NCBI RefSeq assembly: GCF_003626735.1
Contig: NZ_RBHX01000001.1
Location: 1,674,001 to 1,738,000 of the forward strand
Direction of reading: 5' to 3'
Length of the DNA: 64,000 bases
Origin: Microbacterium sp. CGR2
GTDB taxonomy: Bacteria; Actinomycetota; Actinomycetes; Actinomycetales; Microbacteriaceae
Translations under genes and position numbers: made by a program
Part shown: positions 1-14,235 of the stretch, one piece after another
How the letters are laid out: each line of letters opens with the position of its first letter
Numbering within the stretch: position 1 is the stretch's first letter
The notes under the pieces: model-generated
What the model was told of the DNA's origin: nothing
Seen by the model: the letters and a program-made list of their open reading frames with translations, nothing else
Databases searched by the model: none

Positions 1-936
1 ACGGCGAAGAAAGACACGAGCACGAACCGTCGCGAGCCGAAGAGAATCGGCCACCGCGCTCGCGCACAGCGCCGTGAAGCGATCGCCCTCGTGGTGCCGG
101 CGCTGCTGCCGATCATCATCTTCTCCCTCATCCCGCTCGTCAGCGGTGTGGCGCTCGGCTTCACCAACGCCACCCTCAAGCGCAACGCGGAGATCGAGTT
201 CATCGGGTTCGGCAACTTCATCGAGCTGCTCGGCGACGATCGGTTCTGGGGCTCGTTCGGCATCGGCATCGTCTGGGCGGCATCGGTCGCCCTGCTGACA
301 CTCGTCTGTGCGATAGGGCTCGCGCTGCTGCTCAACAGCGACCTGCGTCTGAAAGGCCTGACACGCGTTCTGGCGCTGATCCCGTGGGCGATGCCCCCGG
401 TGGTCATCGCGATCGTGTGGCGGATGATCTACAACCCGAACTCGGGCCCGCTCAACGGTGCGCTCGAAGCGGTCGGCATTCCCGGGGTCAACTGGCTCGG
501 CGACTTCTCGACGGCACTTCCCGCTGTCATCGTCGTCGGCGTCTGGGCCGGAATCCCTCAGACCACGGTTCTGCTGCTGGCCGGAATGCAGTCCATCTCG
601 CCGGAACAGCACGAGGCTGCTGCAGTCGACGGAGCCGGGGCGCTCCGCCGCTTCTGGCACATCACGCTGCCAGCGCTGAGGCCGGTCATCATCGCGGTCA
701 CGGCGCTCGACTTCATCTGGCAGTTCAACTCGTTCGGCCTCATCTACGTCCTCACCGAGGGCGGCCCGGGTGGGCGGACGATGATCCCCCCGCTGTTCAC
801 CTACCTCGAGGCGTTCCGCAACCGCGAGATCGGCTACGCCTCCGCGATGGGTGACGTGCTGGTGATCGCGATCATGCTGATCCTGTCGCTCTATCTCGTC
901 AATCAGTTCCGCCAGACGAAGGGGGCACGCTCATGA
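1..936 (+). CDS. Sugar ABC transporter permease, MalF-type (5' end outside window)
   Basis: Integral membrane permease of a carbohydrate ABC importer (MalF/UgpA family). The frame is open from base 1 and codes for a basic, Arg-rich leader before the first membrane helix, as in MalF relatives. The real start is therefore probably upstream of the window, and the GTG at 91 is only the first in-window start. About six hydrophobic helices are visible. The EAA loop that contacts the ATPase reads EAAAVDGAGALRRFWHITLP, at about residue 180 from the GTG. The gene overlaps the next permease by ATGA. No ATPase gene is in the operon, so a shared MsmK/UgpC-type ATPase elsewhere is likely. Family is certain; the substrate is unknown. 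Confidence 0.93.
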   Translation, partial: TAKKDTSTNRREPKRIGHRARAQRREAIALVVPALLPIIIFSLIPLVSGVALGFTNATLKRNAEIEFIGFGNFIELLGDDRFWGSFGIGIVWAASVALLTLVCAIGLALLLNSDLRLKGLTRVLALIPWAMPPVVIAIVWRMIYNPNSGPLNGALEAVGIPGVNWLGDFSTALPAVIVVGVWAGIPQTTVLLLAGMQSISPEQHEAAAVDGAGALRRFWHITLPALRPVIIAVTALDFIWQFNSFGLIYVLTEGGPGGRTMIPPLFTYLEAFRNREIGYASAMGDVLVIAIMLILSLYLVNQFRQTKGARS

Positions 937-1772
937 CCTCGAAGCGCCCCTGGTGGGGGACGCTGCTGATGTACGTGGCGCTGGCCGCGTTCCTGTTCTT
1001 CCTCGGATTCCCCCTGCTCTGGCTGCTGTCCGCATCGTTCAAGTCGACCAGCGAACTGAATTCGCTCGCGGTGAACCTGATTCCCGCGGACTGGGACTTC
1101 AGCAACTACACCACGGCGCTCGAACGGCAGAACCTCATCACCGCAGCGGGGAACTCACTGCTCGTCTCGATCGCGACGATGGTGATCACGGTGCTGCTGT
1201 CGATGCCGATGGCCTATGCGCTCGCGCGGCTCAAGGGTCGGCTCCGTGCGGCCGGCACGGTCTGGATTCTCACCAGCCAGGTGTTTCCTTCGATCCTGAT
1301 CATCATCCCGTTGTTCCTCGTCCTGCGCTCGATCAACCTGAACGACACCCTGTTCGGTCTGATCCTCGTCTACGTGACCTTCACCCTGCCGTTCACTCTG
1401 TGGATGCTGCAGGGCTATGTCGCCGCGATTCCGACGGAGTTGGAGGAGGCGGGCGAGATGGACGGCGCATCCCGCGTCACGATCTTGCGGACGATCATCC
1501 TTCCGCTGCTCGCGCCGGGACTCGTCGCCACCGCGATGTTCACGTTTGTGTCGGCATGGAACGAGTTCTTCCTCGCTCTGGTGCTGCTGCAGAGCCCCGA
1601 GCTGTACACCCTTCCGATCGCACTGCGGTCCTTCCTGGGCGCCGAAGGCCAGACCCAGCTCGGGCCGCTGGCAGCCGGAGCGATCCTCGCGACGATCCCG
1701 TCGCTCATCATCTTCAGCATTCTGCAGAAGAAGCTCACCGGCGGCATGCTCGCCGGCGCAGTCAAGGGCTGA
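933..1772 (+). CDS. Sugar ABC transporter permease, MalG-type
   Basis: Second permease of the same carbohydrate ABC importer (MalG/UgpE family), 279 residues with about six membrane helices. The EAA loop (EEAGEMDGASRVTILRTIIL, near residue 175) is intact. The start overlaps the preceding stop by ATGA, so the two are co-translated. A lipoprotein solute-binding gene follows 43 bases downstream. The pair would form the membrane channel; substrate specificity would come from the binding protein. Confidence 0.94.
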   Translation: MTSKRPWWGTLLMYVALAAFLFFLGFPLLWLLSASFKSTSELNSLAVNLIPADWDFSNYTTALERQNLITAAGNSLLVSIATMVITVLLSMPMAYALARLKGRLRAAGTVWILTSQVFPSILIIIPLFLVLRSINLNDTLFGLILVYVTFTLPFTLWMLQGYVAAIPTELEEAGEMDGASRVTILRTIILPLLAPGLVATAMFTFVSAWNEFFLALVLLQSPELYTLPIALRSFLGAEGQTQLGPLAAGAILATIPSLIIFSILQKKLTGGMLAGAVKG

Positions 1773-1815
1773 CCCGGCCCACCACGAGAACCACACAACG
1801 AGAAAGGCGAGCAAC

Positions 1816-3111
1816 ATGAACAGCATCCGAGGCATCGGCGCCATCGCTTTCGCGGGCGTCGCCGTCCTTGCCCTGAGCGGTTGTACGCAGGGCAGCGCGA
1901 ACAACGGATCGGGCGAGGGCGAGGGCGGAGCAGTCACCCTCCAGTTCCAGTCGCTCTCCGACCAGCCGGCGACGCAGGCCGCCGTGAAGTCCATCGTCGA
2001 CGAGTGGAACGCGGACAACGCCGACATCCAGGTCGAGATCATCCAGGCGGGATGGGACGGCGCGTTCGACAAGCTGATCACCCAGTTCACCGGCGGTACG
2101 GCACCCGACATCATCCACTTCGAGGCGAGCTCGATCGTCTCCTTCGCGGCAGACGGCTACCTCGCCGACCTGACGGACCTCGTCGACGAGGACCTCAAGT
2201 CGGACATCTCCGAGGGCATCTGGGAGTCCGTGACCCAGGAAGACCAGATCATCGCGTACCCCTCGACGCTGCAGTCGTACATGGCTTTCGCCAACGCGGA
2301 CCTGCTCGAAGCAGCAGGTGTCGAGATCCCGACCGGCGACACGATGACGTGGGATGAGCTGCAGGAGATCGCCAAGGCGACCACCACGGGCGACACCTAC
2401 GGACTGGGCTGGGGGCTCGCCTCGCCCACAGCGACCGTGATGAGCCTCGCGCTCGGCTTCGACGGCGGCTTCTTCTCCGGCGAGGGGGCTGACGCGTCGA
2501 TCGAGGTGGGTGAGAACGAACTCGCAGTCCCGGAGCGCATCCACGAGATGGCCTACACCGACAAGTCGATCCAGCCCACGTCGCTCACCCAGTCCGGTTC
2601 CGACGTGCTCGCCTCGTTCTACGGTGGCAAGGTCGCGATGACGGTGCAGGGGTCCTTCCAGGCGACGAACATCGCGAACGACGCCCCCGAGGGATTCAAC
2701 TGGGTCGCTCTCCCGCCGCTCGAAGGCTCGGAAGGCGCCGTTCAGGCCGCAAACCCGCAGACCTACTCGGTGAACGTCGATTCCGAGTACGTGGAGGAGT
2801 CCGCCGAGTTCCTCAACTTCTTCATGAGCGGCGACAACCTGGCGCAGATCGCCTACGCCGATGCACTGATCCCGTCTTCGGAGTCGGCTCGCACCGAGGT
2901 CGAGAAGCTCGCGGCGGACAACCCCGCCTGGACCCAGGTGCTGGCGTCCGGCGAAGGACTCGTCGGACCGCCGTTCCTCAAGGTGGAGAAGTACACCGAA
3001 TGGAAGGACACGATCGCCACACCGGCCTTCCAGCAGTACCTGGCGGATCAGATCACCAGCGAGGAGCTGGCGGCGCAGCTGTCCGACGGCTGGGCAGACA
3101 TCGCCGGCTGA
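1816..3111 (+). CDS. Sugar ABC transporter solute-binding lipoprotein
   Basis: Extracytoplasmic binding protein (family 1, MalE/UgpB-like), 431 residues. The N-terminus is a lipoprotein signal: a short charged start, a hydrophobic stretch and lipobox ALSGC with Cys23 as the acylated residue. The frame is open further upstream, but ATG 1816 follows AGAAAGGCGAG and begins the signal peptide, so it is the start. A fold-typical segment reads FTGGTAPDIIHFEAS. It captures the substrate outside the cell for the two permeases just upstream. The enzymes downstream suggest a glycosylated or ribosylated ligand; that is inference. Confidence 0.94.
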   Translation: MNSIRGIGAIAFAGVAVLALSGCTQGSANNGSGEGEGGAVTLQFQSLSDQPATQAAVKSIVDEWNADNADIQVEIIQAGWDGAFDKLITQFTGGTAPDIIHFEASSIVSFAADGYLADLTDLVDEDLKSDISEGIWESVTQEDQIIAYPSTLQSYMAFANADLLEAAGVEIPTGDTMTWDELQEIAKATTTGDTYGLGWGLASPTATVMSLALGFDGGFFSGEGADASIEVGENELAVPERIHEMAYTDKSIQPTSLTQSGSDVLASFYGGKVAMTVQGSFQATNIANDAPEGFNWVALPPLEGSEGAVQAANPQTYSVNVDSEYVEESAEFLNFFMSGDNLAQIAYADALIPSSESARTEVEKLAADNPAWTQVLASGEGLVGPPFLKVEKYTEWKDTIATPAFQQYLADQITSEELAAQLSDGWADIAG

Positions 3112-3117
3112 TGACCT

Positions 3118-3149
3118 GAGCGGGGGCGGGCGACCGTCCGCCCCCGCTC
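3118..3149 (+). terminator. Strong intra-operon hairpin after binding-protein gene
   Basis: A perfect 12-bp GC stem, GAGCGGGGGCGG (3118-3129) with CCGCCCCCGCTC (3138-3149), lies just after the binding-protein stop. There is no T run, and the next gene is 32 bases further. It is better read as an mRNA-stabilising or partial-termination hairpin that raises binding-protein level over the enzymes. Confidence 0.65.
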
Positions 3150-3181
3150 GTCACCGACGACCAAGGCAAGAAGGAGTGGGA

Positions 3182-4351
3182 ATGTTCGTGTTGCAGGACC
3201 GAGTGGCCGGAGTGCTCGCAGGCGCCGCAGTAGGAGACGCGTTGGGAGGGGCGACCGAGGGGTGGACACCCGAGCAGATCGAGGAACGCCACGGCGGTCG
3301 CGTCGAGGGCATCGTCGGTCCGTTCCTCGCGGACTGGAAGACCGCTCGCCCGATCGCGCCGTACCACAAGGGCGACGGCCACGTCACGGACGACACCCTG
3401 ATGACGCACGCGCTCGTCGAGGTGTACGCGAAGCGCCGGCGCCATCTCGACGCCTACGACGTCGCCGGCGATCTCGTCCCGCTCATGATCGGCGAACGGC
3501 GCTGGATCCCCGAACTGGAAGACGACGCGCTGATCCTGCAGCGCGTCTTCCTGGCGGAGAAGTGGATCGTGGCGAAGCTGCACTACGGACACGCTGACCC
3601 CCGCGAGGCAGGGGTCGGCAACATCGTCAACTGCGGAGCCACGATGTACATGGCGCCCGTCGGTCTCGTGCACATCGGCGATCCCCGCGGAGGGTACGCC
3701 GAGGCGATCGACATCGCCGGCGCCCACCAGTCGTCGTACGGGCGGGAGGCGGCCGGCGTCTTCGCGGCAGCTGTGGCGGCATCCGCTGCCCCCGGTGCCA
3801 CCGTCGCCGACGTGCGCACCGCTGTGCTCGACGTCGCACATGACGGCACTGCGGCGGCGATCCGCGCGGTCTTCGATGCGGTCGACGCCTACACCGCGAG
3901 CGGCGGATCGGACGATCCCCGCGACCTTGCTCGTGTCGTCCGCGCCGCCGTCGCCCCCTTCGACACGGTGGGGGAGCAGTACCGGGCGCCGGCCATGGAT
4001 GCGCGTCTGCCCTCGCGCACGAAATCCATTGAAGAGCTTCCTGCTGCGCTCGGCTTCGTCGTGGCTCGAGACGGCGATCTGCGTGCCGCGGTTCTCGACG
4101 CCGTCAACTACGGCAGAGATTCCGACTCGATCGCGACGATGGCCGGCGCGATCTGCGGTGGTCTGCACGGTGCCGATGCTGTGCCGAAGGAATGGGTGAC
4201 GGGCGTCACCACGGCCAGTCGACTCGACCTCGACGGGGTCGTCGCCGCGATGACCGAGGTCGTCGAGGACATCGCTCGCGCTGACGCCGACCGGGCTTCT
4301 CGGCGTGCGGCCACCCTCGCCGGCTTGCTCGGCCAGGGGGACGCCGGATGA
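3182..4351 (+). CDS. ADP-ribosylglycohydrolase family protein (first of two)
   Basis: 389-residue member of the DraG/ARH family, Mg-dependent hydrolases that cleave N- or O-ribosyl bonds. Visible motifs are GAAVGDALGG near the N-terminus, the metal site TDDTLM at about residue 70, and the C-terminal metal motif GRDSDSIATMAGAI at about residue 312. The metal-binding residues look complete, so it should be active. ATG 3182 is preferred over GTG 3176 because the GTG lies inside the AAGGAG ribosome-binding site. It is translationally coupled (ATGA) to a second, divergent family member. In a sugar-import operon the substrate is more likely a small ribosyl compound than a protein; that is inference. 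Confidence 0.88.
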   Translation: MFVLQDRVAGVLAGAAVGDALGGATEGWTPEQIEERHGGRVEGIVGPFLADWKTARPIAPYHKGDGHVTDDTLMTHALVEVYAKRRRHLDAYDVAGDLVPLMIGERRWIPELEDDALILQRVFLAEKWIVAKLHYGHADPREAGVGNIVNCGATMYMAPVGLVHIGDPRGGYAEAIDIAGAHQSSYGREAAGVFAAAVAASAAPGATVADVRTAVLDVAHDGTAAAIRAVFDAVDAYTASGGSDDPRDLARVVRAAVAPFDTVGEQYRAPAMDARLPSRTKSIEELPAALGFVVARDGDLRAAVLDAVNYGRDSDSIATMAGAICGGLHGADAVPKEWVTGVTTASRLDLDGVVAAMTEVVEDIARADADRASRRAATLAGLLGQGDAG

Positions 4352-5712
4352 GGCTGACATGGGCGCAGCCGGAGGATCTGGTCCCCGCCGAATTCGCGGC
4401 GCTGCGGGAGCAGGGCGTCGCGGAGGACGCGCTCGCCGCAATCGAGCGGGAGTGGGCGGATGCCGGAGGACCGACGGTACTCGCGCCATCCGGGGCGAGT
4501 GCCACACCGGTCTCGGCAGAGGTTCGAGCGCTCGCGCGACTCGTCCTCGACGAACTGGCGAGGCTGCAGACGCCGAGCGCCGAAGAACCGGACGACTGGG
4601 ATGAGATCGTCGCTCTCCTTCCGACGGTGGAGGCCGCTCCGACGCGTGCCGCGTTCGACCGCGTCCACGGTGCCTGGCTCGGACGTGCTGCCGGATGTCT
4701 TCTGGGCAAGCCCGTCGAGAAGATTCCGCGAGAGGGCATCGAGGAGATAGCCCGCGCCACGGGGAACTGGCCGATCGAGCGGTACTTCACCGCTGTCGCG
4801 CTGCCGTCCGACATCGCGGAGCGCTGGCCGTGGAATCGCCGTTCGGCGCCGACCTCGCTGCGGGAGAACATCGACGGGATGCCGGAGGACGACGACCTCA
4901 ACTTCCCGATACTCGCGCTCGACCTGCTCGAGACCCACGGCGACGACTTGACCACCGATGACGTCGCTCAGGCCTGGCTCGCCGCGCTGCCGGCGGGAAG
5001 AGTGTTCACCGCCGAACGTGCGGCGTACCGGAACATCCTCGACGCCCGGCCCGTGCCCGAGACGGCCACCCATCTGAACCCGTTCCGCGAGTGGATCGGT
5101 GCGATGATCCGTGCCGATGTGCACGGATGGGCGCACCCCGGCGATGCCCGCGCTGCCGCGGCCTCGGCATGGACCGACGCCCGGCTCAGCCATACGCGCA
5201 ACGGAATCTACGGCGAGATGTGGGCTGCCGCGCTCTGCTCGGCATCGATCGTCGTGACCTCGATCGACGAGGTGCTGGATGCGGCCGACGGTGTCGTGCC
5301 GCCGGCATCCCGTCTCGCCTCCGCTGTTCGGCTCGGACGCGATCTCGGACGGTCGCTGGCCGAGGGCGCGCTCACAGCCGACGCTGCGCTCGATCGACTG
5401 CACACGGAGTTCGCCGGCATGCACTGGGTGCACACGCTCAACAACGCCGCTCTGACCGCGTGCGCGCTGCAGGCCCACGGCGACGACTTCGGATCCGCGA
5501 TCGCTCTCGCCGTCGCCGGCGGGTGGGACACCGACTCCGTCGGAGCGACGGTCGGTTCGGTCGTCGGCGGGCTCCTCGGGGCGGACGGGATCGACGAGAC
5601 ATGGACATCGCCGCTGCGGGACCGCATCGCGACGTCGATGCCCGGCGGACCGGAGCGATCCATCCGTGAGCTCGCAGAGCGCACGCTGCGACTGTCGACG
5701 GCGACGCCATGA
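4348..5712 (+). CDS. ADP-ribosylglycohydrolase family protein (second of two)
   Basis: 454 residues, longer than its upstream neighbour by an N-terminal extension of about 100 residues. The hydrolase fold then starts at AWLGRAAGCLLGKP (about residue 109). Metal-site motifs are EDDDLNF (about 178) and GGWDTDSVGATVGSVVGG (about 390), which match the DraG-type pattern. It overlaps the genes on both sides by ATGA. Two paralogous but dissimilar ribosyl hydrolases in tandem suggest sequential cleavage of one compound, or different linkages or anomers. The exact reaction is unknown. Confidence 0.87.
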   Translation: MRLTWAQPEDLVPAEFAALREQGVAEDALAAIEREWADAGGPTVLAPSGASATPVSAEVRALARLVLDELARLQTPSAEEPDDWDEIVALLPTVEAAPTRAAFDRVHGAWLGRAAGCLLGKPVEKIPREGIEEIARATGNWPIERYFTAVALPSDIAERWPWNRRSAPTSLRENIDGMPEDDDLNFPILALDLLETHGDDLTTDDVAQAWLAALPAGRVFTAERAAYRNILDARPVPETATHLNPFREWIGAMIRADVHGWAHPGDARAAAASAWTDARLSHTRNGIYGEMWAAALCSASIVVTSIDEVLDAADGVVPPASRLASAVRLGRDLGRSLAEGALTADAALDRLHTEFAGMHWVHTLNNAALTACALQAHGDDFGSAIALAVAGGWDTDSVGATVGSVVGGLLGADGIDETWTSPLRDRIATSMPGGPERSIRELAERTLRLSTATP

Positions 5713-6641
5713 CCGTCGTCATCGTCGGCAGCATCAATCAGGACATCGTCGCGCAAGTCGAGCGCATCCCCGCGCCGGGTGAGACCGTGCTCGCCACGAC
5801 GCTGCTGCGCACCGGAGGAGGCAAGGGAGCGAATCAGGCCGTCGCCGCACGGCGGGCGGGTGGAGCGAGGGTCGCTTTCGTCGGTGCTGTCGGTACTGAC
5901 GCCGACGGAGAATCACTCCGCTCCGCGCTCATCGCCGACGAGATCGACGTCTCCGGTCTCTCCCAGATCGACGGTCCCAGTGGCATCGCGCTGATCGCCG
6001 TGGATGCCGCCGCCGAGAACACCATCGTGGTCGTCCCGGGAGCGAATGCGGCGATTCCCGCACTCACCGAGATGCAGAGTGCGGTGGTCGCCGGCGCGAG
6101 CGTGCTTCTCACGCAACTCGAGATCCCGATCTCGCTCGTCCAGGAGGCAGCGGCGGCGCGATCGGCGACCGCGTGGCATCTGTTGAACGCAGCGCCGTCC
6201 GCGCCGTTCATCGCCGCCGGAGCCGCTCTCCTCGCCGCGGTGGACGTGCTGATCGTCAACGAGCACGAGGCGCTCGACATCGCCGAGGTCGCCGAGGTCG
6301 ACGAGGCCATCGACGTCCTCGCATCCCGTGTGGGAGCACTCGTCATCACACTCGGACAGAGCGGGTCTCTCGTCATCTGCCGCGGCGAGCGCGCGCACGT
6401 TCCGGCGTTCGCGGCGGACGCCATCGACACGACGGGCGCCGGGGACACGTTCTGCGGCATGTTCGCCGCGACCCTCGCGGCATCCGGCCGCACTCCCGAC
6501 ACCGCCGACGTGACGCTTCTGGCCGGGGCCGCCCGCGCCGGCGCGGCTGCCGCTGCGCTCGCAGTCACACGACAGGGAGCGCAGGCGGCCGTGCCCGCGC
6601 AGACCGAGGTCGCGGCACTCCTCGAAAGGGGCGACGTATGA
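5709..6641 (+). CDS. PfkB/ribokinase-family carbohydrate kinase
   Basis: 310-residue sugar or nucleoside kinase. The PfkB signatures are present: N-terminal GSINQDIVAQVERIPAPGE, the substrate-site GGKGANQAVAARR (about residue 39), and the C-terminal DTTGAGDTFCGMFAA (about 240) with the catalytic Asp. The GGKGANQA form is typical of ribokinase, so free ribose from the two upstream hydrolases is a natural substrate. It is ATGA-coupled to both neighbours. An alternative is a nucleoside or deoxyribose kinase. Confidence 0.9.
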   Translation: MTVVIVGSINQDIVAQVERIPAPGETVLATTLLRTGGGKGANQAVAARRAGGARVAFVGAVGTDADGESLRSALIADEIDVSGLSQIDGPSGIALIAVDAAAENTIVVVPGANAAIPALTEMQSAVVAGASVLLTQLEIPISLVQEAAAARSATAWHLLNAAPSAPFIAAGAALLAAVDVLIVNEHEALDIAEVAEVDEAIDVLASRVGALVITLGQSGSLVICRGERAHVPAFAADAIDTTGAGDTFCGMFAATLAASGRTPDTADVTLLAGAARAGAAAAALAVTRQGAQAAVPAQTEVAALLERGDV

Positions 6642-8575
6642 GCGGCGGTTTCGATCCCCTGCACCCGCGCGAACTGGACCTGCCGACGCTCGTCCCTCTC
6701 GACGTCGATGTGGCGGAGGGAGACGCGGCACTCATGCTCGACGATGCCAAGATCTTCGCCGCACCCGCCGACGCCGCCGACGTGCCCACCTGGCGGGAGC
6801 AGCTGACGGCCTGGCGCGAAGGAGCCCGTCAGCGGCATGGGGCGCCCGTGCGGTACGACGAGCCTGCGTCGCGCTGGGCGAGCCGGTGCTTCACGGTCGC
6901 GCAGGTCTGGCTGTGGGATGAGCTCTTCTTCGACTTCGACGCCCAGCGATTCACGCCGCACCGCTTCCTCGCCGACGCGCGCGAGCGCTTCGGCGGGCTC
7001 GACGGGGTGGTGCTCTGGCACGCCTACCCGGTGATCGGCATCGATGACCGCAACCAGTGGGACTTCTACGATGTGCCCGGCCTCGCCGAGGCCGCCTCGG
7101 AGCTGCGGGTCGCCGGGGTCGCGGTATTCCTCGACTACAACCCGTGGGACACGGGGACGCGGCGCGCCGGGGCCGACAAGGATGAACTCGCCGTGACGAT
7201 GCGTCGGCTCGGGGCGGACGGCGTCTTTCTCGACACTCTCAAGAAAGCGGACCCCGAGCTGGTCGCCGCGCTCGACGAGGCGCGCCCCGGCGTCGGCCTC
7301 GAGGGTGAGTCCAAACTCGCCACCGAGCGCATCGCCGACCACACCCTCTCGTGGGCGCAGTGGTTCGCGGACTCGGAGACTCCGGGGGTTCTCCGGGCTC
7401 GCTGGTTCGAACGCCGCCACATGCAGCACCACATCCGCCGCTGGCATCGCGATCACGCAGCCGAACTCCGCTCCGCCTGGCTCAACGGCGTGGGCATCAT
7501 GGTGTGGGAGGTGGTCTTCGGCGCCTGGGTCGGGTGGAACGATCGCGACGCGGCAACACTGCGACGCATGCTTCCGGTGCAGCGCGGATTCCATCGGTGG
7601 CTCGTCGACGGGGAGTGGACGCCGCTGACGGTTCTCGACGGACCTCTCGTCGGGTCGGCGTTCGACCTCGACGGAGTCACCCTTCTGCTGCTCGCCAACA
7701 CCTCCGACGAAGAGATCGTGTACCGTCCGTCGGGCGCAGGATGGTCGGCTCTGCACGCGGGGGATGCGGCGGAGGCGATCACGGTGCCCGCGGGTGGGAT
7801 CGCCGGAGCGGTCCGCGTCGCAGACGGGGTCGACACCCCGGACGAACTCGTTGTGGTGCGGGAGGCCCTCGCCGATGAGGTCGTCGTGCGGGATGCCTCA
7901 TTCCCGCACCGCCGAGCCGCGCGTCTGGCCGCGCCGCGCTGGGACGGCCCTCTTGCGCCGACCGCCCCGGCATCCGATCCGGCGGTCGTCGTGCCCGCAG
8001 GCGATCACACGCTCACGGTGCGGTTCCGCATGCGGGAGACCGGGATGTATGACGGAGCGCCCTACGTCGATGAGTGGAAGCCGCTCCCTCCGCGCTTGCA
8101 CGACCAGCGCACGCTGGAGCGCTCGGTGACACTTCCGAGGCCGGTGCGCGTCGCCGTCGCGGAGGTCAGCGAGGCGGAATACGCCCGATTCCTGGAGGCG
8201 ATCGGGGAGGTCGCGGTCTCTCGTGACCCGGAACGGCCGGCCACCGGCGTGACCTTCGCTCGTGCGCGTGAGTACGCCGCCTGGGCGGGAGGCCGACTGC
8301 CGACCGAAGACGAGTGGCAACTCGCCGCCGCGCAGCCAGGCTTCGTCCGGCGCACCCCCGAGGTCTGGAACTGGACCGACTCAGAGCATTCGGACGGGCG
8401 TACGCGATTCGTCATGCTCAAGGGAGGCAGTGCACACCGGAGCGAGGGGTCCGACTGGTACTTCGACGGAGGGGCGAAGCCCGCAGACTTCACGGCCAAG
8501 CTGCTTCTTCCCGGGCTCGGCCAGGATGCCTCCCCGTCGATCGGATTTCGGATCTGCCGGGAGGACACCGAATGA
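6638..8575 (+). CDS. Glycosidase-like protein with formylglycine-enzyme-like C-terminal domain
   Basis: 645 residues. ATG 6638 overlaps the kinase stop by 4 bases and is the start, although the frame is open upstream. Residues of about 100-320 resemble a (beta/alpha)8 glycoside hydrolase: VVLWHAYPVIGIDDRNQWDF, FLDYNPWDTG, DGVFLDTLKK, GLEGESK and the WEVVFGAWVGW block. A beta-rich region follows. The last 180 residues look like the FGE-sulfatase/SUMF1 fold (YAAWAGGRLPTEDEWQLAA, MLKGGSAHRSEG, and the closing IGFRICRE). I see no FGE copper-site Cys pair, so this part is probably a binding module. The specific substrate is unknown. Confidence 0.72.
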   Translation: MSGGFDPLHPRELDLPTLVPLDVDVAEGDAALMLDDAKIFAAPADAADVPTWREQLTAWREGARQRHGAPVRYDEPASRWASRCFTVAQVWLWDELFFDFDAQRFTPHRFLADARERFGGLDGVVLWHAYPVIGIDDRNQWDFYDVPGLAEAASELRVAGVAVFLDYNPWDTGTRRAGADKDELAVTMRRLGADGVFLDTLKKADPELVAALDEARPGVGLEGESKLATERIADHTLSWAQWFADSETPGVLRARWFERRHMQHHIRRWHRDHAAELRSAWLNGVGIMVWEVVFGAWVGWNDRDAATLRRMLPVQRGFHRWLVDGEWTPLTVLDGPLVGSAFDLDGVTLLLLANTSDEEIVYRPSGAGWSALHAGDAAEAITVPAGGIAGAVRVADGVDTPDELVVVREALADEVVVRDASFPHRRAARLAAPRWDGPLAPTAPASDPAVVVPAGDHTLTVRFRMRETGMYDGAPYVDEWKPLPPRLHDQRTLERSVTLPRPVRVAVAEVSEAEYARFLEAIGEVAVSRDPERPATGVTFARAREYAAWAGGRLPTEDEWQLAAAQPGFVRRTPEVWNWTDSEHSDGRTRFVMLKGGSAHRSEGSDWYFDGGAKPADFTAKLLLPGLGQDASPSIGFRICREDTE

Positions 8576-9759
8576 GCGCGCTCGAGGGACTGCGGGTGGT
8601 GGACGCGTCGACGTTGTTCGCCGGGCCCATGGCTGCGATGCATCTGGGGGACATGGGTGCCGAGGTCGTCAAGGTGGAGCATCCGCGTCGGCCGGATCCT
8701 GCGCGCGGGCACGGTCCGAGCAAGGACGGTCAGAATCTCTGGTGGAAGACGCTGGGGCGCAACAAGCGCACGGTGGCTGTCGACCTCCACACGGAGGGCG
8801 GGCGCGACGCGTTTCTCCGTCTTGCCCGTACGGCGGATGTCGTGATCGAGAACTTCCGGCCAGGGACCCTCGAGCGCTGGGGGTTGGACTACGCCGCCTT
8901 GTCGGAGGAGAATCCGGGGTTGATTCTCGCGCGGGTGACCGGATTCGGGCAGATCGGGCCGTACCGGCGTCGGCCGGGTTTCGGCACCCTTGCGGAGGCG
9001 ATGAGCGGATTCGCGTCGTCGACGGGCGAACCTGATCGGCCGCCGACTCTCCCGCCGTTCGGGCTCGCAGACGGCGTCGCCTCACTCGCGACGGCGTACG
9101 CGATCATGGTCGCGCTGCATTCACGCGACCGGGACGGCAAGGGCCAGGAGGTGGATGTCGCGATCATCGAGCCGATCCTCGCAATGCTGGGCCCGCAGAT
9201 CACTCGCTGGGATCAGCTCGGAACGGTGCAGCCTCGGACGGGCAATCGCTCGGTGAACAACGCTCCTCGCAATGCGTACCGGACAGCGGACGGCTCCTGG
9301 GTCGCCGTGTCGACGAGCGCGCAGTCCATCGCCGAGCGCGTCGTGACCCTCGTCGGCAGGCCGGAGCTCGCTGACCAGGCCTGGTTCGCCACGGGGGCAG
9401 GTCGAGCCGAGCACGCGGATCTCCTCGATGACGCCGTCGGCGGCTGGATCAGTCGGCACTCCCGCGAGGAGGTCGTCGATGCGTTCGAGAAGGCCGAGGC
9501 TGCGGTCGCGCCGATCTACGATGCGTCCGACATCGTCGCGGACCCGCAGTTCAACGCACTCGGCACCATCCACCGGATCCACGATGAAGATCTCGGCGAC
9601 ATGGCCATGCAAGGACCGCTGTTCCGATTGTCGCGCGATGATGCGACGATCGCTTTCACCGGGCGGGCGCACGGTGCCGACACCGATGCGGTCCTCGGTG
9701 AACTGGGCTACTCGGCGGCGGAACTCACCGCGCTGCGCGAAGAGGGGAGTATCGGATGA
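8572..9759 (+). CDS. CaiB/BaiF family CoA-transferase
   Basis: 395-residue class III CoA-transferase, which moves CoA between carboxylic acids through a catalytic Asp. The start is GLRVVDASTLFAGPMAAMHL, followed by DMGAEVVKVEHPRRPDP. The catalytic Asp is probably in KGQEVDVAIIEPI (about residue 195). ATG 8572 gives an ATGA overlap with the preceding gene. Next to a CitE-like lyase, it would activate a hydroxy-acid such as malate, citramalate or a related 3-hydroxy dicarboxylate for cleavage. Family is sure; the acid is inferred from the neighbour. Confidence 0.9.
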   Translation: MSALEGLRVVDASTLFAGPMAAMHLGDMGAEVVKVEHPRRPDPARGHGPSKDGQNLWWKTLGRNKRTVAVDLHTEGGRDAFLRLARTADVVIENFRPGTLERWGLDYAALSEENPGLILARVTGFGQIGPYRRRPGFGTLAEAMSGFASSTGEPDRPPTLPPFGLADGVASLATAYAIMVALHSRDRDGKGQEVDVAIIEPILAMLGPQITRWDQLGTVQPRTGNRSVNNAPRNAYRTADGSWVAVSTSAQSIAERVVTLVGRPELADQAWFATGAGRAEHADLLDDAVGGWISRHSREEVVDAFEKAEAAVAPIYDASDIVADPQFNALGTIHRIHDEDLGDMAMQGPLFRLSRDDATIAFTGRAHGADTDAVLGELGYSAAELTALREEGSIG

Positions 9760-10601
9760 ACCGGTCGACCATCGTCGCCGTGTACGCGCCGGCCGACCGT
9801 CCCGAGCGTTTCGAGAAGGCGCTGGATGCCGGGGCGGATGCCGTCATCGTTGATCTCGAAGACGCGGTCACGGCATCGCGGAAGGATGATGCTCGCGCAG
9901 CGCTCGTGGATTTCGCCGCGGCGTGGGCGGACCGCGGGCAGAGCGCACCGAGCGTGCAGGTGCGTGTCAACACGATCGGTTCGCGGTGGCACGACGCCGA
10001 CGTCGAAGCCGTTGCCGACCTCCCCGCCGAGTTCGGCCTCCGTCTGCCGAAGACGCAGTCGCCGGAGCATGTCGCCGGCGTCCGCGCGGGCGTCCCGGGC
10101 CGCCCCGTGCATGCTCTTCTCGAGTCGGCGCTGTCGATAGAGCGTGCGTTCGAGATCGCCTGTTCCGGTGTCTCTTCGATCGCGACGGGTGAAGCCGACC
10201 TGAGGGCGGAACTCGGCGTACCCGCCGGACCGGGCGGCGAACCGGGGCTGGCATGGTCGCGCAGCCGCATCGTGAACGCCGCGGCGGCCGCCGCACTTCC
10301 GGCCCCGCTGATGGCGGTGTATGCGGATGTCGCCGATCTCGATGGGCTGGAGGCAAGCTGCCGAGCAGGGCGGGCACTCGGGTTCGGAGGCCGCACGGCG
10401 GTGCATCCCCGTCAGATCGACACGATTCGCCGGGCATTCACTCCGGATGCGGCGGAGATCGCCCGGGCGCAGAGCATCATCGATCGCGTGCGCTCTGCTG
10501 CCGCGGACGGCACCGGGGCGTTCGTCCTCGAAGACGGCACGTTCATCGACGTCGCGATGGTGCGTGCGGCCGAACGGATCGTCGCCGCCGCCGGAGGGTG
10601 A
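9756..10601 (+). CDS. CitE/HpcH-type CoA-ester lyase
   Basis: 281-residue aldolase or lyase of the HpcH/HpaI-CitE family, which splits beta-hydroxyacyl-CoA such as malyl- or citramalyl-CoA into acetyl-CoA and an oxo acid. Motifs are DAVIVDLEDAV (about residue 28), QVRVNTIGSRWHD, LLESALSIERAFEI with a metal-ligand Glu, SIATGEADLRAELG with a metal-ligand Asp, and AVHPRQI. It is the last operon gene, ATGA-coupled to the CoA-transferase. The CoA-transferase plus lyase pair mirrors known itaconate and citramalate degradation modules, without the hydratase. Confidence 0.87.
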   Translation: MNRSTIVAVYAPADRPERFEKALDAGADAVIVDLEDAVTASRKDDARAALVDFAAAWADRGQSAPSVQVRVNTIGSRWHDADVEAVADLPAEFGLRLPKTQSPEHVAGVRAGVPGRPVHALLESALSIERAFEIACSGVSSIATGEADLRAELGVPAGPGGEPGLAWSRSRIVNAAAAAALPAPLMAVYADVADLDGLEASCRAGRALGFGGRTAVHPRQIDTIRRAFTPDAAEIARAQSIIDRVRSAAADGTGAFVLEDGTFIDVAMVRAAERIVAAAGG

Positions 10602-11195: not shown

Positions 11196-11233
11196 CGCGC
11201 CAGCCTAAGCCGACGCGATGAGCGGAGCGAGTG

Positions 11234-12019
11234 TCAGACGATCGTCGGCAGCACGCCGCCGTCCGCGCGGAGCGCGGCTCCGTTGGTCGCGGACGACAGC
11301 GGGCTGGCGAGGTAGGTCACGAGGTTCGCGATCTCGGTGGGTTCGAGGAAGCGCTGCACCAGCGAGGTCGGGCGCACGAGGGCGGACTTCATCTGATCGG
11401 TTGTGATCGACTGCGCCGCGGCGATCTGCTCGACGACGTTCGCGACCCCGTCGGAGTAGGTCGGCCCGCCGAGGACCGTGTTCACAGTGACGCCCGTGCC
11501 GCGTGTGAGCTTGGCGAGGCCGTTGCTCACGGCGAGGGATGCCGCCTTCGTCGCACCGTAGGGGATCATGTTGCCCGGCACGTCGACGGCGGATTCCGTG
11601 CCGACGAAGATGATCCGACCCCAGCCGCTCTCGATCATCGAGGGGAGGAAGCGGCGCGACAGCCGCACGCCCGCCATGACGTTGACCTGGAAGTACCGCA
11701 GCCACTCGTCATCCGTCGTCTCAGGGAACTCTGCGACGTCGAAGGTGCCGACATTGTTCACGAGGACGTCGACCGCTCCGATCTCGCCGAGCAGGGCGTC
11801 GATGCCGGTGGCGTCGGAGAAGTCCGCGGCCACTCCGAAGACGCTCCCGCCGGGGACGGCGCCACGCAGCTTCTCGACTGCCGAGTCGACCCGTTCGGCG
11901 GTGCGTCCGTTCACGATCACCTCGGCGCCCTCCGCGAGGCACGAGGCGGCGACGGCATAGCCGATCCCTTGCGTCGAGCCGCTGATCAAGACGCGCTTTC
12001 CTGCGAGCTTCAGGTCCAT
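11234..12019 (-). CDS. SDR family NAD(P)-dependent oxidoreductase
   Basis: 261-residue classical short-chain dehydrogenase. The cofactor motif is SGSTQGIGYAVA (residues about 12-20), then NNVG, and the catalytic pair is in YGATKAASLAV. The frame runs on upstream, but ATG 12019 has a strong AGGAGG box 7 bases before it and starts with the family-typical MDLKLAGKRVLISG. It is divergent from a MarR regulator across 105 bases with two operator-like sites, so it is very likely the regulator's target. Substrate unknown. Confidence 0.92.
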   Translation of the reverse strand: MDLKLAGKRVLISGSTQGIGYAVAASCLAEGAEVIVNGRTAERVDSAVEKLRGAVPGGSVFGVAADFSDATGIDALLGEIGAVDVLVNNVGTFDVAEFPETTDDEWLRYFQVNVMAGVRLSRRFLPSMIESGWGRIIFVGTESAVDVPGNMIPYGATKAASLAVSNGLAKLTRGTGVTVNTVLGGPTYSDGVANVVEQIAAAQSITTDQMKSALVRPTSLVQRFLEPTEIANLVTYLASPLSSATNGAALRADGGVLPTIV

Positions 12020-12056
12020 GGTCAGTCCTCCTTCTGCTGCCTCTCCGACAGCATTT

Positions 12057-12105
12057 ACTTTCTTAGTCAAGTGAACCCTACGTTGATTCACTTTCCTGAG
12101 CAAGT
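12057..12105. promoter_or_regulatory. Pair of MarR-type operator candidates
   Basis: Two similar 16-bp sites, ACTTTCTTAGTCAAGT (12057-12072) and ACTTTCCTGAGCAAGT (12090-12105), both have the form ACTT-N8-AAGT. Their starts are 33 bp apart, three helical turns, and they lie between the divergent SDR and MarR genes. The placement and form fit autoregulation and repression of the SDR gene. Confidence 0.6.
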
Positions 12106-12124
12106 TTGCGGCTACGATGTGGGG

Positions 12125-12613
12125 ATGGCTGATGCAGGCGATTCGCGCGGGTGGAACCCGGAGGAACTGGAGACCTGGTCGGCGGTGGCGACTCTGCTCG
12201 AGTGGCTCCCGGCTGTTCTGGACACCCAGCTGCGACAGGACTCCGAGATGAGTCACTTCGAATTCGGCATCCTGTTCGCCCTCGATCAGGCGGAGGGCAA
12301 CACGCTCACCATGAGTGAGCTCGCGGGATACGCGAACAGCTCCCTCTCGCGGCTGTCTCGTGCGGTCGCGCGACTGGAGAAGAACGGATGGGCGGCGCGT
12401 CGACCCAAGCCGGACGACGGCCGCATCACCCTCGCCACCCTGACGGACGAGGGGGCGGCAGCAGTTCGCGCGGCCCTCCTGGGACACACCGCGCTCGTGC
12501 GCCGAATCGTCTTCGGCTCGTTGACCGACGCCCAGTCCCGCCAGCTCGGGGCGATCGCGCGCAGGATCACGACCGCGATCGACTCCCAGGACGCGTGGGC
12601 TCCGCCGCGCTGA
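12125..12613 (+). CDS. MarR family transcriptional regulator
   Basis: 162-residue winged-helix regulator. The recognition region is TMSELAGYANSSLSRLSRAVARLEKNGWAARR (residues about 60-92), followed by the wing DDGRITLATLTDEG. The start ATG 12125 follows GTGGGG with short spacing. It most likely represses the divergent SDR gene and itself through the two paired sites between them, with release by a small aromatic or electrophilic ligand, as is usual for MarR. The ligand is not identifiable. Confidence 0.9.
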   Translation: MADAGDSRGWNPEELETWSAVATLLEWLPAVLDTQLRQDSEMSHFEFGILFALDQAEGNTLTMSELAGYANSSLSRLSRAVARLEKNGWAARRPKPDDGRITLATLTDEGAAAVRAALLGHTALVRRIVFGSLTDAQSRQLGAIARRITTAIDSQDAWAPPR

Positions 12614-12641: not shown

Positions 12642-13427
12642 TCAGAGGACGATGTCTCCGAACGAGGCGAGCGACCGCCTGCCCGCCGGCCGCACCGTCG
12701 GGTCGTTCAGCACGTCGGCGTCGCGGAGGACGTCGACCGCGATGCCCGCGGCATCCGCGATGTCGGTGATCGGGGCCTGGAACGTCCGGAACGCGCCGAG
12801 TGGGGGATGCGCCAGCAGCCCGTCGCGGGTATCGACCAGCTCGCTCTGATCCAGGAGGAACCCGGCGGCCCGGAGACCGTCCGGGCTCTGCCAGGCGGCG
12901 ATCTTCCAGAAGAGCAGCGGAACACGGATGCCGCGGTACGGCGGGTCGTCATCGGCGAGCACCGGGGCGGTGAACACACTCACGCGCTGATCGGTCGTCT
13001 CCGCGTACGCGAGCACGTGGTCTTCGAGGCCGAGCCAGAGCTCCTTCGACTGATTGAACCCGGCGGCTTGAGGGGCCGCATTCGGGTAGAAGAACGTCGC
13101 CTCCATCGCGTCGCGTGCTTCTTCCGTGTCTCCCCAACCCGGATCGCGTCGACGCACGAGGTGGCCGCGATCGAGGTCGTTCCGCGCATACACATCGGGC
13201 CCCGTCTGCTCGCCGGCATCCGCTCTCGGGTCGAGTCGCCAGTCGCCGTCCCGGGGGAGGTCGCGGAGCGAAGCCCCGTCGATGTTCACACCGGTGACCG
13301 ACGCGAGCCGCCGTTCCGGGTCGAGGAGCACCGTGAATCGCGGATAGGGGAGTGTCCGGACCTCTCCCCCCGGTTGTGGAAGCATCAGTTCGGTGGCGAG
13401 GAACCTGGAGTCGTAGCCGTCGGTCAT
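12642..13427 (-). CDS. DNA/RNA non-specific endonuclease
   Basis: 261-residue nuclease of the NucA/EndoG (beta-beta-alpha-metal) family. The catalytic signature is NDLDRGHLVRRRDPGWG (about residue 90), with the DRGH His as general base. Downstream are FYPNAAPQAAGFNQ, with the metal-ligand Asn, and WLGLEDHVL. ATG 13427 is the first Met of the fold; the upstream in-frame extension lacks family features. No signal peptide is visible, unlike secreted NucA types. It is convergent with the MarR gene. Role could be nucleotide salvage or defence; not resolved. Confidence 0.88.
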   Translation of the reverse strand: MTDGYDSRFLATELMLPQPGGEVRTLPYPRFTVLLDPERRLASVTGVNIDGASLRDLPRDGDWRLDPRADAGEQTGPDVYARNDLDRGHLVRRRDPGWGDTEEARDAMEATFFYPNAAPQAAGFNQSKELWLGLEDHVLAYAETTDQRVSVFTAPVLADDDPPYRGIRVPLLFWKIAAWQSPDGLRAAGFLLDQSELVDTRDGLLAHPPLGAFRTFQAPITDIADAAGIAVDVLRDADVLNDPTVRPAGRRSLASFGDIVL

Positions 13428-13568
13428 GGCTCCTATCGTGCCGGACTCGTGGCAAGCGCGAAGGCTCCCACGGCGTGGCGGCCGCCGCGCGCCTCCGCGT
13501 GACGATGTTCTGCTGCGGATGCGGTGGCGGTCGCATGGCAGGATCGTGAGCGGAAGGGGGTGCGCGCG

Positions 13569-13883
13569 ATGATCGTACGCGGCCGCATCATCGACGCGAT
13601 GACGAGGTGCGTGCACTACGGAACCGCCGTCGACATCGTCGCGATCCGGTTCGCGTGCTGCGGCGAGTACTACCCCTGCCATCTCTGTCACGAGGAGACG
13701 GCGGGTCACCCGGCGCAACAGTGGGGCTTGCACGAGCGCGAGACCAAGGCTGTGCTGTGCGGAGCATGCAGGACGGAGTTGTCGATCGGTGAGTACCTCC
13801 CGGTCTCGGAGTGCCCGCACTGTCGATCGCGGTTCAACGAGGGGTGCGCGCTGCACGCCCACCTCTACTTCGAGATCGCGTAG
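13569..13883 (+). CDS. CHY zinc finger protein
   Basis: 104 residues. The whole protein is a CHY-type zinc-binding domain: CVHY, RFACCGEYYPCHLCHEE, LCGACR, and ECPHCRSRFNEGCALHAHLYFE supply about nine Cys and several His for three zinc ions. The start ATG 13569 follows a GGAAGGGGG box. Bacterial stand-alone CHY proteins have no firmly known role; some sit with thiol or metal stress genes, which fits the arsenic genes next door. Confidence 0.9.
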   Translation: MIVRGRIIDAMTRCVHYGTAVDIVAIRFACCGEYYPCHLCHEETAGHPAQQWGLHERETKAVLCGACRTELSIGEYLPVSECPHCRSRFNEGCALHAHLYFEIA

Positions 13884-13893
13884 CCCGCAGTGG

Positions 13894-14235
13894 TCACGCA
13901 GTGCGCAGGGCGTCGGCAGCCGCATCGAGCGCCGTGCCGTTGAGGGCGAAGTAGGCCCACTTGCCGCGCTGCTCGCGGGTGACGAGACCGGCATCGGTGA
14001 GCAGTTTCATGTGGTGCGACACCGTGCCCTGGGAGAGGCCGACCGGCTCGGTGAGGTCGCAGATGCAGGCCTCGCCCCCTTCTCCCGCGGCGATGAGTGA
14101 CAGCAGGCGCACACGGGTCGGATCGCCGAGAGCCTTGAATACGCGCGCTGAGCGTTCGGCGTCTTCGACGGACAGCGCCGAGGTGACGCGCGGGACGCAG
14201 CAGGCGGTGGCGTCGATGGTCAGGGGCAGGCTCAC
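13894..14235 (-). CDS. arsR: ArsR family arsenic-responsive repressor
   Basis: 113-residue winged-helix repressor. The metalloid site is probably the Cys pair in GEACICDLTEPVG at the start of the DNA-binding helix, plus the N-terminal ACC pair. The recognition helix is SQGTVSHHMKLL. The only usable start is GTG 14235; there is no clear ribosome-binding site, so it may be leaderless. It is divergent from an ArsO-like flavoprotein across two ArsR-type boxes and should derepress both genes on As(III). Confidence 0.9.
   Translation of the reverse strand: MSLPLTIDATACCVPRVTSALSVEDAERSARVFKALGDPTRVRLLSLIAAGEGGEACICDLTEPVGLSQGTVSHHMKLLTDAGLVTREQRGKWAYFALNGTALDAAADALRTA

Follow-up and report, generated by a model that had tools for sequence, protein, structure and literature searches.

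A conserved LacI-linked operon in Microbacterium sp. CGR2 as a candidate catabolic unit for a sugar–3-hydroxy acid conjugate

What compound is imported and taken apart by the operon that occupies the left end of a 64 kb stretch of the Microbacterium sp. CGR2 genome (the window; C1:1674001-1738000 in a 3.97 Mb genome), in which genes for a sugar ATP-binding cassette (ABC) importer are followed by genes for two ADP-ribosylglycohydrolase-fold hydrolases (DraG1 and DraG2), a PfkB kinase, a barrel fused to a domain resembling the formylglycine-generating enzyme (FGE; the fusion is termed GlyFGE), a CaiB-type CoA-transferase and a CitE-type lyase? The answer favoured here, at about even confidence, is a conjugate in which a ribose-type (pentofuranose) sugar is joined to a citrate/citramalate-type 3-hydroxy acid and which probably has an additional alpha-glycosidic bond, with the operon serving as its LacI-controlled catabolic unit. 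The genes are as follows; L004 is a separate coordinate set covering the DNA upstream of window base 1, and all other positions are those of the window.

L004:12841-13989, + strand, lacI-type regulator, first gene, overlapping permease 1 and outside the window
1..936, + strand, sugar ABC permease 1 (PF00528, 84.7 bits); true start at L004:13986, 15 bases before the window
933..1772, + strand, sugar ABC permease 2 (PF00528, 79.2 bits)
1816..3111, + strand, extracellular solute-binding protein (SBP; PF01547, SBP_bac_1, 112.4 bits); start set at 1816
3176..4351, + strand, DraG1, ADP-ribosylglycohydrolase-fold hydrolase (PF03747, 154.5 bits)
4348..5712, + strand, DraG2, ADP-ribosylglycohydrolase-fold hydrolase with an N-terminal extension of about 100 amino acids (PF03747, 144.5 bits, residues 108-417)
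5709..6641, + strand, PfkB kinase, closest to ribokinase (PF00294, 169.2 bits)
6638..8575, + strand, GlyFGE, with a GH13/GH129-like barrel (approximately residues 27-401, predicted fold) and an FGE/SUMF1-like domain (PF03781, 41.8 bits)
8572..9759, + strand, CaiB-type (family III) CoA-transferase (PF02515, CoA_transf_3, 393.9 bits); start set at 8572
9756..10601, + strand, CitE-type acyl-CoA lyase (PF03328, HpcH_HpaI, 100.3 bits)

The original prediction had named nine consecutive genes, and all nine were found on the + strand in the claimed order by frame listing and by Pfam matches above the curated cut-offs. Its content stands and its limits were revised: permease 1 extends upstream of the window and lacI lies there, giving a ten-gene unit (lacI–permease–permease–SBP–DraG1–DraG2–PfkB–GlyFGE–CaiB–CitE) that begins about 1.1 kb upstream of the window. 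The ATGA coupling that had been described was recovered as 4-base overlaps at six of the eight in-window junctions (936/933, 4351/4348, 5712/5709, 6641/6638, 8575/8572 and 9759/9756), with short gaps at the other two (1772 to 1816 and 3111 to 3176). CitE, ending at 10601, is the last gene, and the next coding-like frames lie on the opposite strand. The frames were taken as genuine because pN/pS was 0.08-0.39 for all ten genes (aligned stretches; three or four of the four relatives tried), which indicates purifying selection.

The GlyFGE fusion protein was scanned against one genome per species (84,980 genomes), yielding 55 loci, 32 of them actinobacterial and 23 from other groups. All nine non-kinase genes occur in identical order in 28 of the 32 actinobacterial loci, with PfkB in place in 20 and absent from eight; the remaining four (L014, L023, L025 and L035) are cut by contig ends. 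The predicted DraG–DraG–PfkB–CaiB–CitE order is thus kept in the 28 complete loci, with the kinase in 20, and CaiB and CitE are the last two genes in every one of them; recurrence of the identical order in 28 loci excludes chance. GlyFGE identities between pairs of loci are correlated with the identities of the remaining genes (rho 0.80-0.95). Since the flanking genes mostly differ between loci, the exceptions being a few closely related genome pairs, the unit acts like a self-contained cassette. Among the loci found, the most similar were in Microbacterium, Mycetocola and Arthrobacter; the window GlyFGE is 81% identical to a Mycetocola and two Arthrobacter copies, compared with 72% to that of Microbacterium Root166, and this higher identity across genera fits transfer between them. 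GlyFGE is present in 16 of 295 genomes of the genus (its own included) and in one of 396 phylum-sample genomes, the genome itself; the operon is an accessory trait. In L025 (a Propionibacteriaceae metagenome-assembled genome, MAG) and L037 (Tessaracoccus antarcticus), FdrA-like, DUF1116-like and NCS2-permease-like genes adjoin the operon, as judged by eye; being common to these two loci only, they were set aside as operon partners.

A near-palindromic LacI-type operator close to TGGAAACGTTTACA was found directly before lacI in 28 of 29 loci, including the window's own; under the criteria used, none was found in L033. Allowing at most one mismatch, TGKAAACGTTTMCA has a single site in the 3.97 Mb genome, the + and - matches being one palindrome. 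As the operator sits between L004:12841 and 12916, translation of lacI more probably begins with the GTG at 12916 than at 12841. The uniqueness of this predicted operator points to a regulator dedicated to the operon. Co-transcription, assumed in the original prediction, gains partial support from the placement of ten genes behind one genome-unique predicted operator. A sigma-70-type promoter scan gave no site near either end of the operon, and a terminator scan gave a single terminator-like site (10757-10739, - strand).

In the proposed pathway, the SBP and the two permeases would import the conjugate with an ATPase encoded elsewhere, and the GH13-like GlyFGE together with the two metal-dependent DraG hydrolases would remove the sugars. 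The pentose would be phosphorylated by the ribokinase-type PfkB, or perhaps by a host kinase where PfkB is missing, while CaiB would move CoA onto the freed acid. CitE would then cleave the 3-hydroxyacyl-CoA to acetyl-CoA and a keto acid (oxaloacetate if the acid is citrate, pyruvate if it is citramalate), so that a citrate-like acid would be split for energy. Substrate, bond types, step order and every enzyme activity are here predicted; gene content and order, operator, motifs, the predicted GlyFGE fold and the citrate-type systems of Chloroflexota are what was observed.

The ADP-ribosylglycohydrolase fold family is characterized by two metal-binding Asp clusters. DraG1 and DraG2 belong to PF03747 (154.5 and 144.5 bits against a cut-off of 26.2), and both clusters are intact in each: T71-D72-D73-T74 and G313-R314-D315-x-D317 in DraG1 (TDDT, GRDxD) and D181-D182-D183 and G392, D394-T395-D396-S397 in DraG2 (DDD, GxDTDS) are invariant in 22 chosen sequences. 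The NCBIfam equivalog models Tri1 and DraG score far lower than their cut-offs (DraG1, 46.3 against 490 and 44 against 337.05; DraG2, 27.1 and 20.3). Homologues occur beside a ribokinase-type kinase and a nucleoside hydrolase in a Bacteroidota locus (L097; Pfam), with permeases, a ribokinase-like kinase and, by eye, a nucleoside hydrolase and adenosine deaminase in Occultella (L098), and beside a nucleoside ABC importer, nucleoside hydrolase and PfkB kinase on a haloarchaeal plasmid (L109; by eye). Because DraG homologues adjoin nucleoside hydrolase, ribokinase or nucleoside-type importer genes, a role as catabolic ribosidases is favoured over protein de-ADP-ribosylation. The original prediction would fall if the hydrolases acted only on ADP-ribosyl-protein; the carbohydrate and nucleoside catabolic settings of the relatives answer this in part, the activity itself being a prediction.

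Plasmid searches returned two records with GlyFGE relatives, six with DraG2 and 21 with DraG1, and the regions of 11 matches were retrieved. A LacI gene and an importer occur together with between one and four DraG genes in rhizobia and relatives (L101-L103, L107), Deinococcus (L104), Mycolicibacterium (L100) and Nonomuraea (L099). The operons of rhizobia, Deinococcus and Nonomuraea share regulator, importer and DraG gene types with the Microbacterium unit. A ribokinase accompanies the DraG genes in L099, L100, L102 and L104 (none is annotated in L101, L103 or L107), and at least two DraG genes stand with a ribokinase in the ABC operons of L102, L104 and L099. They differ from the Microbacterium unit in that no CaiB or CitE match was found in the regions examined of L099-L104 and L107, nor any GlyFGE match in those of rhizobia, Deinococcus and Nonomuraea. 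The Nonomuraea proteins are 63% (DraG1) and 52% (DraG2) identical to those of the operon; at L099:5822-10404 there are apparently four consecutive DraG-type genes before the ribokinase (two by tblastn, two by eye). The existence of relatives without acid-splitting genes suggests a riboside-catabolic core to which the acid genes are an add-on. The literature search, which covered open-licence papers, so that absence is not proven, and did not always query the whole combination, found no description of the ten-gene set, nor any of these LacI-ABC-DraG-(DraG)-ribokinase operons. A partial likeness is offered by E. coli yegTUV, which encodes a nucleoside:H+ symporter, the predicted DraG-type enzyme YegU and the sugar kinase YegV, and thus also places DraG-type and sugar kinase genes beside a transporter under one single-target repressor. 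According to the source, the functions of the three genes are unknown and the repressor is tied to glycogen accumulation (PMC10819704). Unlike the present operon, yegTUV has one DraG gene, an MFS-type (major facilitator superfamily) transporter, a GntR-type regulator and no acid-cleaving genes.

The window PfkB scores 235.1 bits with the ribokinase model TIGR02152, below the cut-off of 299.65, which the kinase of the Chloroflexota locus L132 exceeds (315.8 bits). For GlyFGE, the FGE-like half of the predicted glycosidase/FGE-like fusion was confirmed as a PF03781 match (41.8 bits against 23.3, positions 25-140 of 255), a domain match from which no formylglycine-generating activity is claimed. 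The glycosidase half gave no Pfam match at E <= 0.001 and is instead predicted to adopt a GH13/GH129-like barrel, with 8-16% identity in fold searches and 9-15% in VIA-align; an invariant Asp after strand 4 and an invariant Glu after strand 5 may match the positions in GH13 and GH129 alpha-glycosidases, whereas the low identity, the lack of a Pfam GH match and the C-terminal FGE-like domain set GlyFGE apart. In all, 2,425 proteins matched GlyFGE at E <= 1e-30 among the 8,000 candidates scored, some of which may share the FGE-like part only; among the 120 listed, almost every source name refers to a formylglycine-generating enzyme or SUMF1.

A DraG gene lies inside the examined stretch at five of the 23 non-actinobacterial GlyFGE loci (L041, L045, L055, L056 and L059) and was not found in that stretch at the other 18; about 0.01 per locus would be expected, as estimated from the one to six PF03747 matches in each of 12 genomes. 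The L041 gene is 6.6 kb from GlyFGE and merely 26% identical to DraG1. In Sphingopyxis the order is ribokinase, GlyFGE, GH127-like, CoA-transferase (GlyFGE 29% and CoA-transferase 30% identical), a looser parallel to the operon. Further GlyFGE relatives are found near GH28 (L105, a partial 32% match), GH51-like (L040), GH43/DUF4185/DUF2961 (L044) and SusCD (L055) genes. A link to D-arabinan enzymes through DUF4185 and DUF2961 was not built on, as it concerns one locus (L044) and a marginal DUF4185 score (39.7 against 39.5).

CaiB is a family III CoA-transferase (PF02515, 393.9 against 23.3 bits), a family assignment that does not imply acid specificity; its best NCBIfam match, succinate-glutarate CoA-transferase, gives 228.9 bits against a cut-off of 750. 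CitE exceeds the PF03328 cut-off (100.3 against 25 bits) and falls below the equivalog cut-offs for RipC (141.3 against 375) and citE (124.7 against 443.4). D33, E35, D36, R70, E123 and D148 are invariant in 11 chosen sequences, and the roles of conserved acidic and Arg residues in PF03328 acyl-CoA lyases are known. In CitDEF, ATP-citrate lyase and the RipC/Rv2498c-type lyases, a 3-hydroxy acid is activated with CoA (or acyl carrier protein) and then split by retro-Claisen cleavage. The operon has the CitE family in common with these systems and differs in having a family III CoA-transferase in the place of CitF, no CitD carrier gene seen and no score above an equivalog cut-off. Rv2498c, a CitE relative, is described as cleaving (S)-citramalyl-CoA and (R)-3-hydroxy-3-methylglutaryl-CoA [(R)-HMG-CoA] and not citryl-CoA, and its authors consider function assignment in the CitE family by bioinformatics alone to be unreliable (PMC6689899). 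Since specificity in this family is not readable from sequence, citrate, citramalate and HMG all remain candidates.

Support for the acid as part of the substrate comes from Chloroflexota relatives with other citrate-cleaving systems. L056/L067 has the order lacI-DraG1-SBP-permease-permease-DraG2-AclA-AclB-esterase with GlyFGE divergent, and L131 the order lacI-DraG1-permease-permease-SBP-DraG2-AclA-AclB. L059 reads DraG2-AclA-AclB-esterase-GlyFGE on a contig that begins inside DraG2 and therefore shows neither importer nor DraG1; L091 (permease-permease-SBP-DraG2-AclA) is cut on both sides, inside the ATP-citrate-lyase-like pair. In L056/L067, L059 and L131 this pair is made up of a SucC-like subunit and of a SucD-like one to which a citrate-synthase-fold domain is fused; all three of these AclB fusions exceed the cut-off of one or more 'citryl-CoA lyase' subfamilies. 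L132 carries lacI-DraG1-permease-permease-SBP-DraG2-ribokinase-CitDE-CitF; because its Cit parts score below the equivalog cut-offs (CitF 486.3 against 501.45, narrowly; CitE part 264.3 against 443.4; CitD part 52.1 against 63.5), an enzyme related to citrate lyase, such as citramalate lyase, is also compatible. DraG1 of L131 and L132 shares 59-66% identity with the L056 protein. Eleven other Chloroflexota regions, taken from 11 of the 28 other Chloroflexota genomes with a match, hold a more distant DraG2 (35-38%, tblastn); none of them gave an AclA, AclB, CitE or CaiB match at E <= 1e-6 (CitF was not searched), so the acid genes appear to go with the close DraG2 type. GlyFGE was found in one of 350 Chloroflexota genomes, the starting genome. 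It is difficult to see why three unrelated means of activating and splitting a citrate-type acid should adjoin one importer/DraG core if the substrate does not supply that acid, and the Chloroflexota loci support the idea of a sugar–3-hydroxy acid conjugate. The earlier proposal that a ribosyl or glycosyl conjugate of a 3-hydroxy dicarboxylate is imported and both halves used gains independent support from ATP-citrate-lyase-like or CitDEF-like systems beside relatives of the DraG/importer core; 'dicarboxylate' may be too narrow, because citrate is a tricarboxylate.

Several points weigh against this reading. None of the PfkB, CaiB and CitE proteins of the window reaches the NCBIfam cut-off of a characterized enzyme. 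The DraG pair does not always serve an acid conjugate, since L099 and L101-L104 lack acid genes in the regions examined and the Chloroflexota locus L133, one of the 11 regions with a more distant DraG2, combines an importer with a DraG pair (45% and 37%) and gave no AclA, AclB, CitE or CaiB match. The replacement pattern is seen in five Chloroflexota genomes only, at least three of them MAGs, and its CitDEF version in L132 only. As L131 and L132 gave no GlyFGE match in the 19.9 kb examined, the alpha-glycosidic step would not be universal. In aerobes the tricarboxylic acid (TCA) cycle could consume free citrate; this either speaks for an analogue such as citramalate or leaves open why a lyase is needed. 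Malate or free citrate by itself, though possible, was set aside because a TCA-competent aerobe would not need the lyase. To our knowledge, no ribose-citrate natural product has been described.

The best surviving alternative, which we nevertheless consider fairly improbable, holds that the acid is not part of the imported compound: the sugar genes would degrade a glycan or nucleoside, while CaiB and CitE would dissimilate a co-occurring acid (itaconate, HMG or leucine products). The DraG/ribokinase importer operons without acid genes (L099, L100, L102, L104) are consistent with it, as are the SusCD-type and glycanase settings of GlyFGE (L055, L044, L040), whose neighbourhoods gave no CaiB or CitE match, and the substrate range of Rv2498c given above. 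It accords poorly with the terminal position of CaiB and CitE in all 28 complete actinobacterial loci and with unrelated citrate-cleaving systems following DraG2, or DraG2 and ribokinase, in five Chloroflexota loci.

Alternatively, the substrate may be a fragment of an acyl-decorated glycan rich in pentofuranose or uronate (similar to pectin or arabinan), with the DraG enzymes acting on a non-ribose furanose and the acid being an ester decoration freed by a PF00756-type esterase. Secreted-looking esterases adjoin the module or GlyFGE in the actinobacterial loci L020, L025, L029 and L037 and in the Chloroflexota loci L050, L053, L059 and L067; the assignment rests on PF00756 scores above the cut-off in L020, L053 and L059, on clustering in L025, L029, L037 and L050 and on weak NCBIfam esterase matches in L067. 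Esterase genes beside these eight loci suggest an ester in some substrates; some of the esterases carry beta-propeller-like repeats. The glycanase and SusCD neighbours of GlyFGE relatives and the Sphingopyxis order with its GH127-like gene point the same way, but ribokinase genes and nucleoside-hydrolase neighbours point to ribose, and neighbour clustering gave no such esterase in the window operon or beside the other actinobacterial loci; we regard a glycan of this kind as unlikely. That the DraG enzymes are regulatory protein or nucleic-acid ADP-ribosyl hydrolases, as the family name and the DraG and ARH3 entries among the named PDB relatives of DraG1 might suggest, is highly improbable given relatives that accompany importers of sugars or nucleosides, kinases and hydrolases across several phyla, signal sequences apparent by eye on some of them (L055, L097), scores far below the cut-offs of characterized NCBIfam models and loci in which no ADP-ribosyltransferase gene turned up, none having been specifically searched for.

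Directly upstream, at L004:5927-12719, another sugar operon runs on the same strand and encodes an SBP, two permeases and a GH31 alpha-xylosidase-like enzyme; it is preceded by a LacI gene on the opposite strand. Downstream, overlapping opposed frames lie at 11231-12613 (+) and 11234-12487 (-), with a MarR-type domain towards the end of the + frame and a short-chain dehydrogenase/reductase domain on the - frame, and a 450-amino-acid frame at 12642-13994 (-) contains a DNA/RNA non-specific endonuclease domain (PF01223, 137.4 bits).

If the conjugate reading is extended, ribosyl (or pentofuranosyl) conjugates of citrate-type acids would be common in nature, this branch of the DraG family, whose members are known for removing ADP-ribosylation, would consist of dedicated ribosidases for them, the pathway would exist in at least three versions over two phyla with different citrate-cleaving machines, and GlyFGE would found a new glycosidase family; we offer this wider view tentatively and think it rather doubtful. 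With one regulator, one operator and one binding protein, the substrate can be screened for directly, and the related Chloroflexota set with different citrate-splitting enzymes makes the guess at its identity testable. If true, the conjugate reading would point to an unnamed environmental metabolite, would give a function to the large GlyFGE protein family and would add a role in carbon catabolism to DraG-fold enzymes that databases label ADP-ribosylglycohydrolases.

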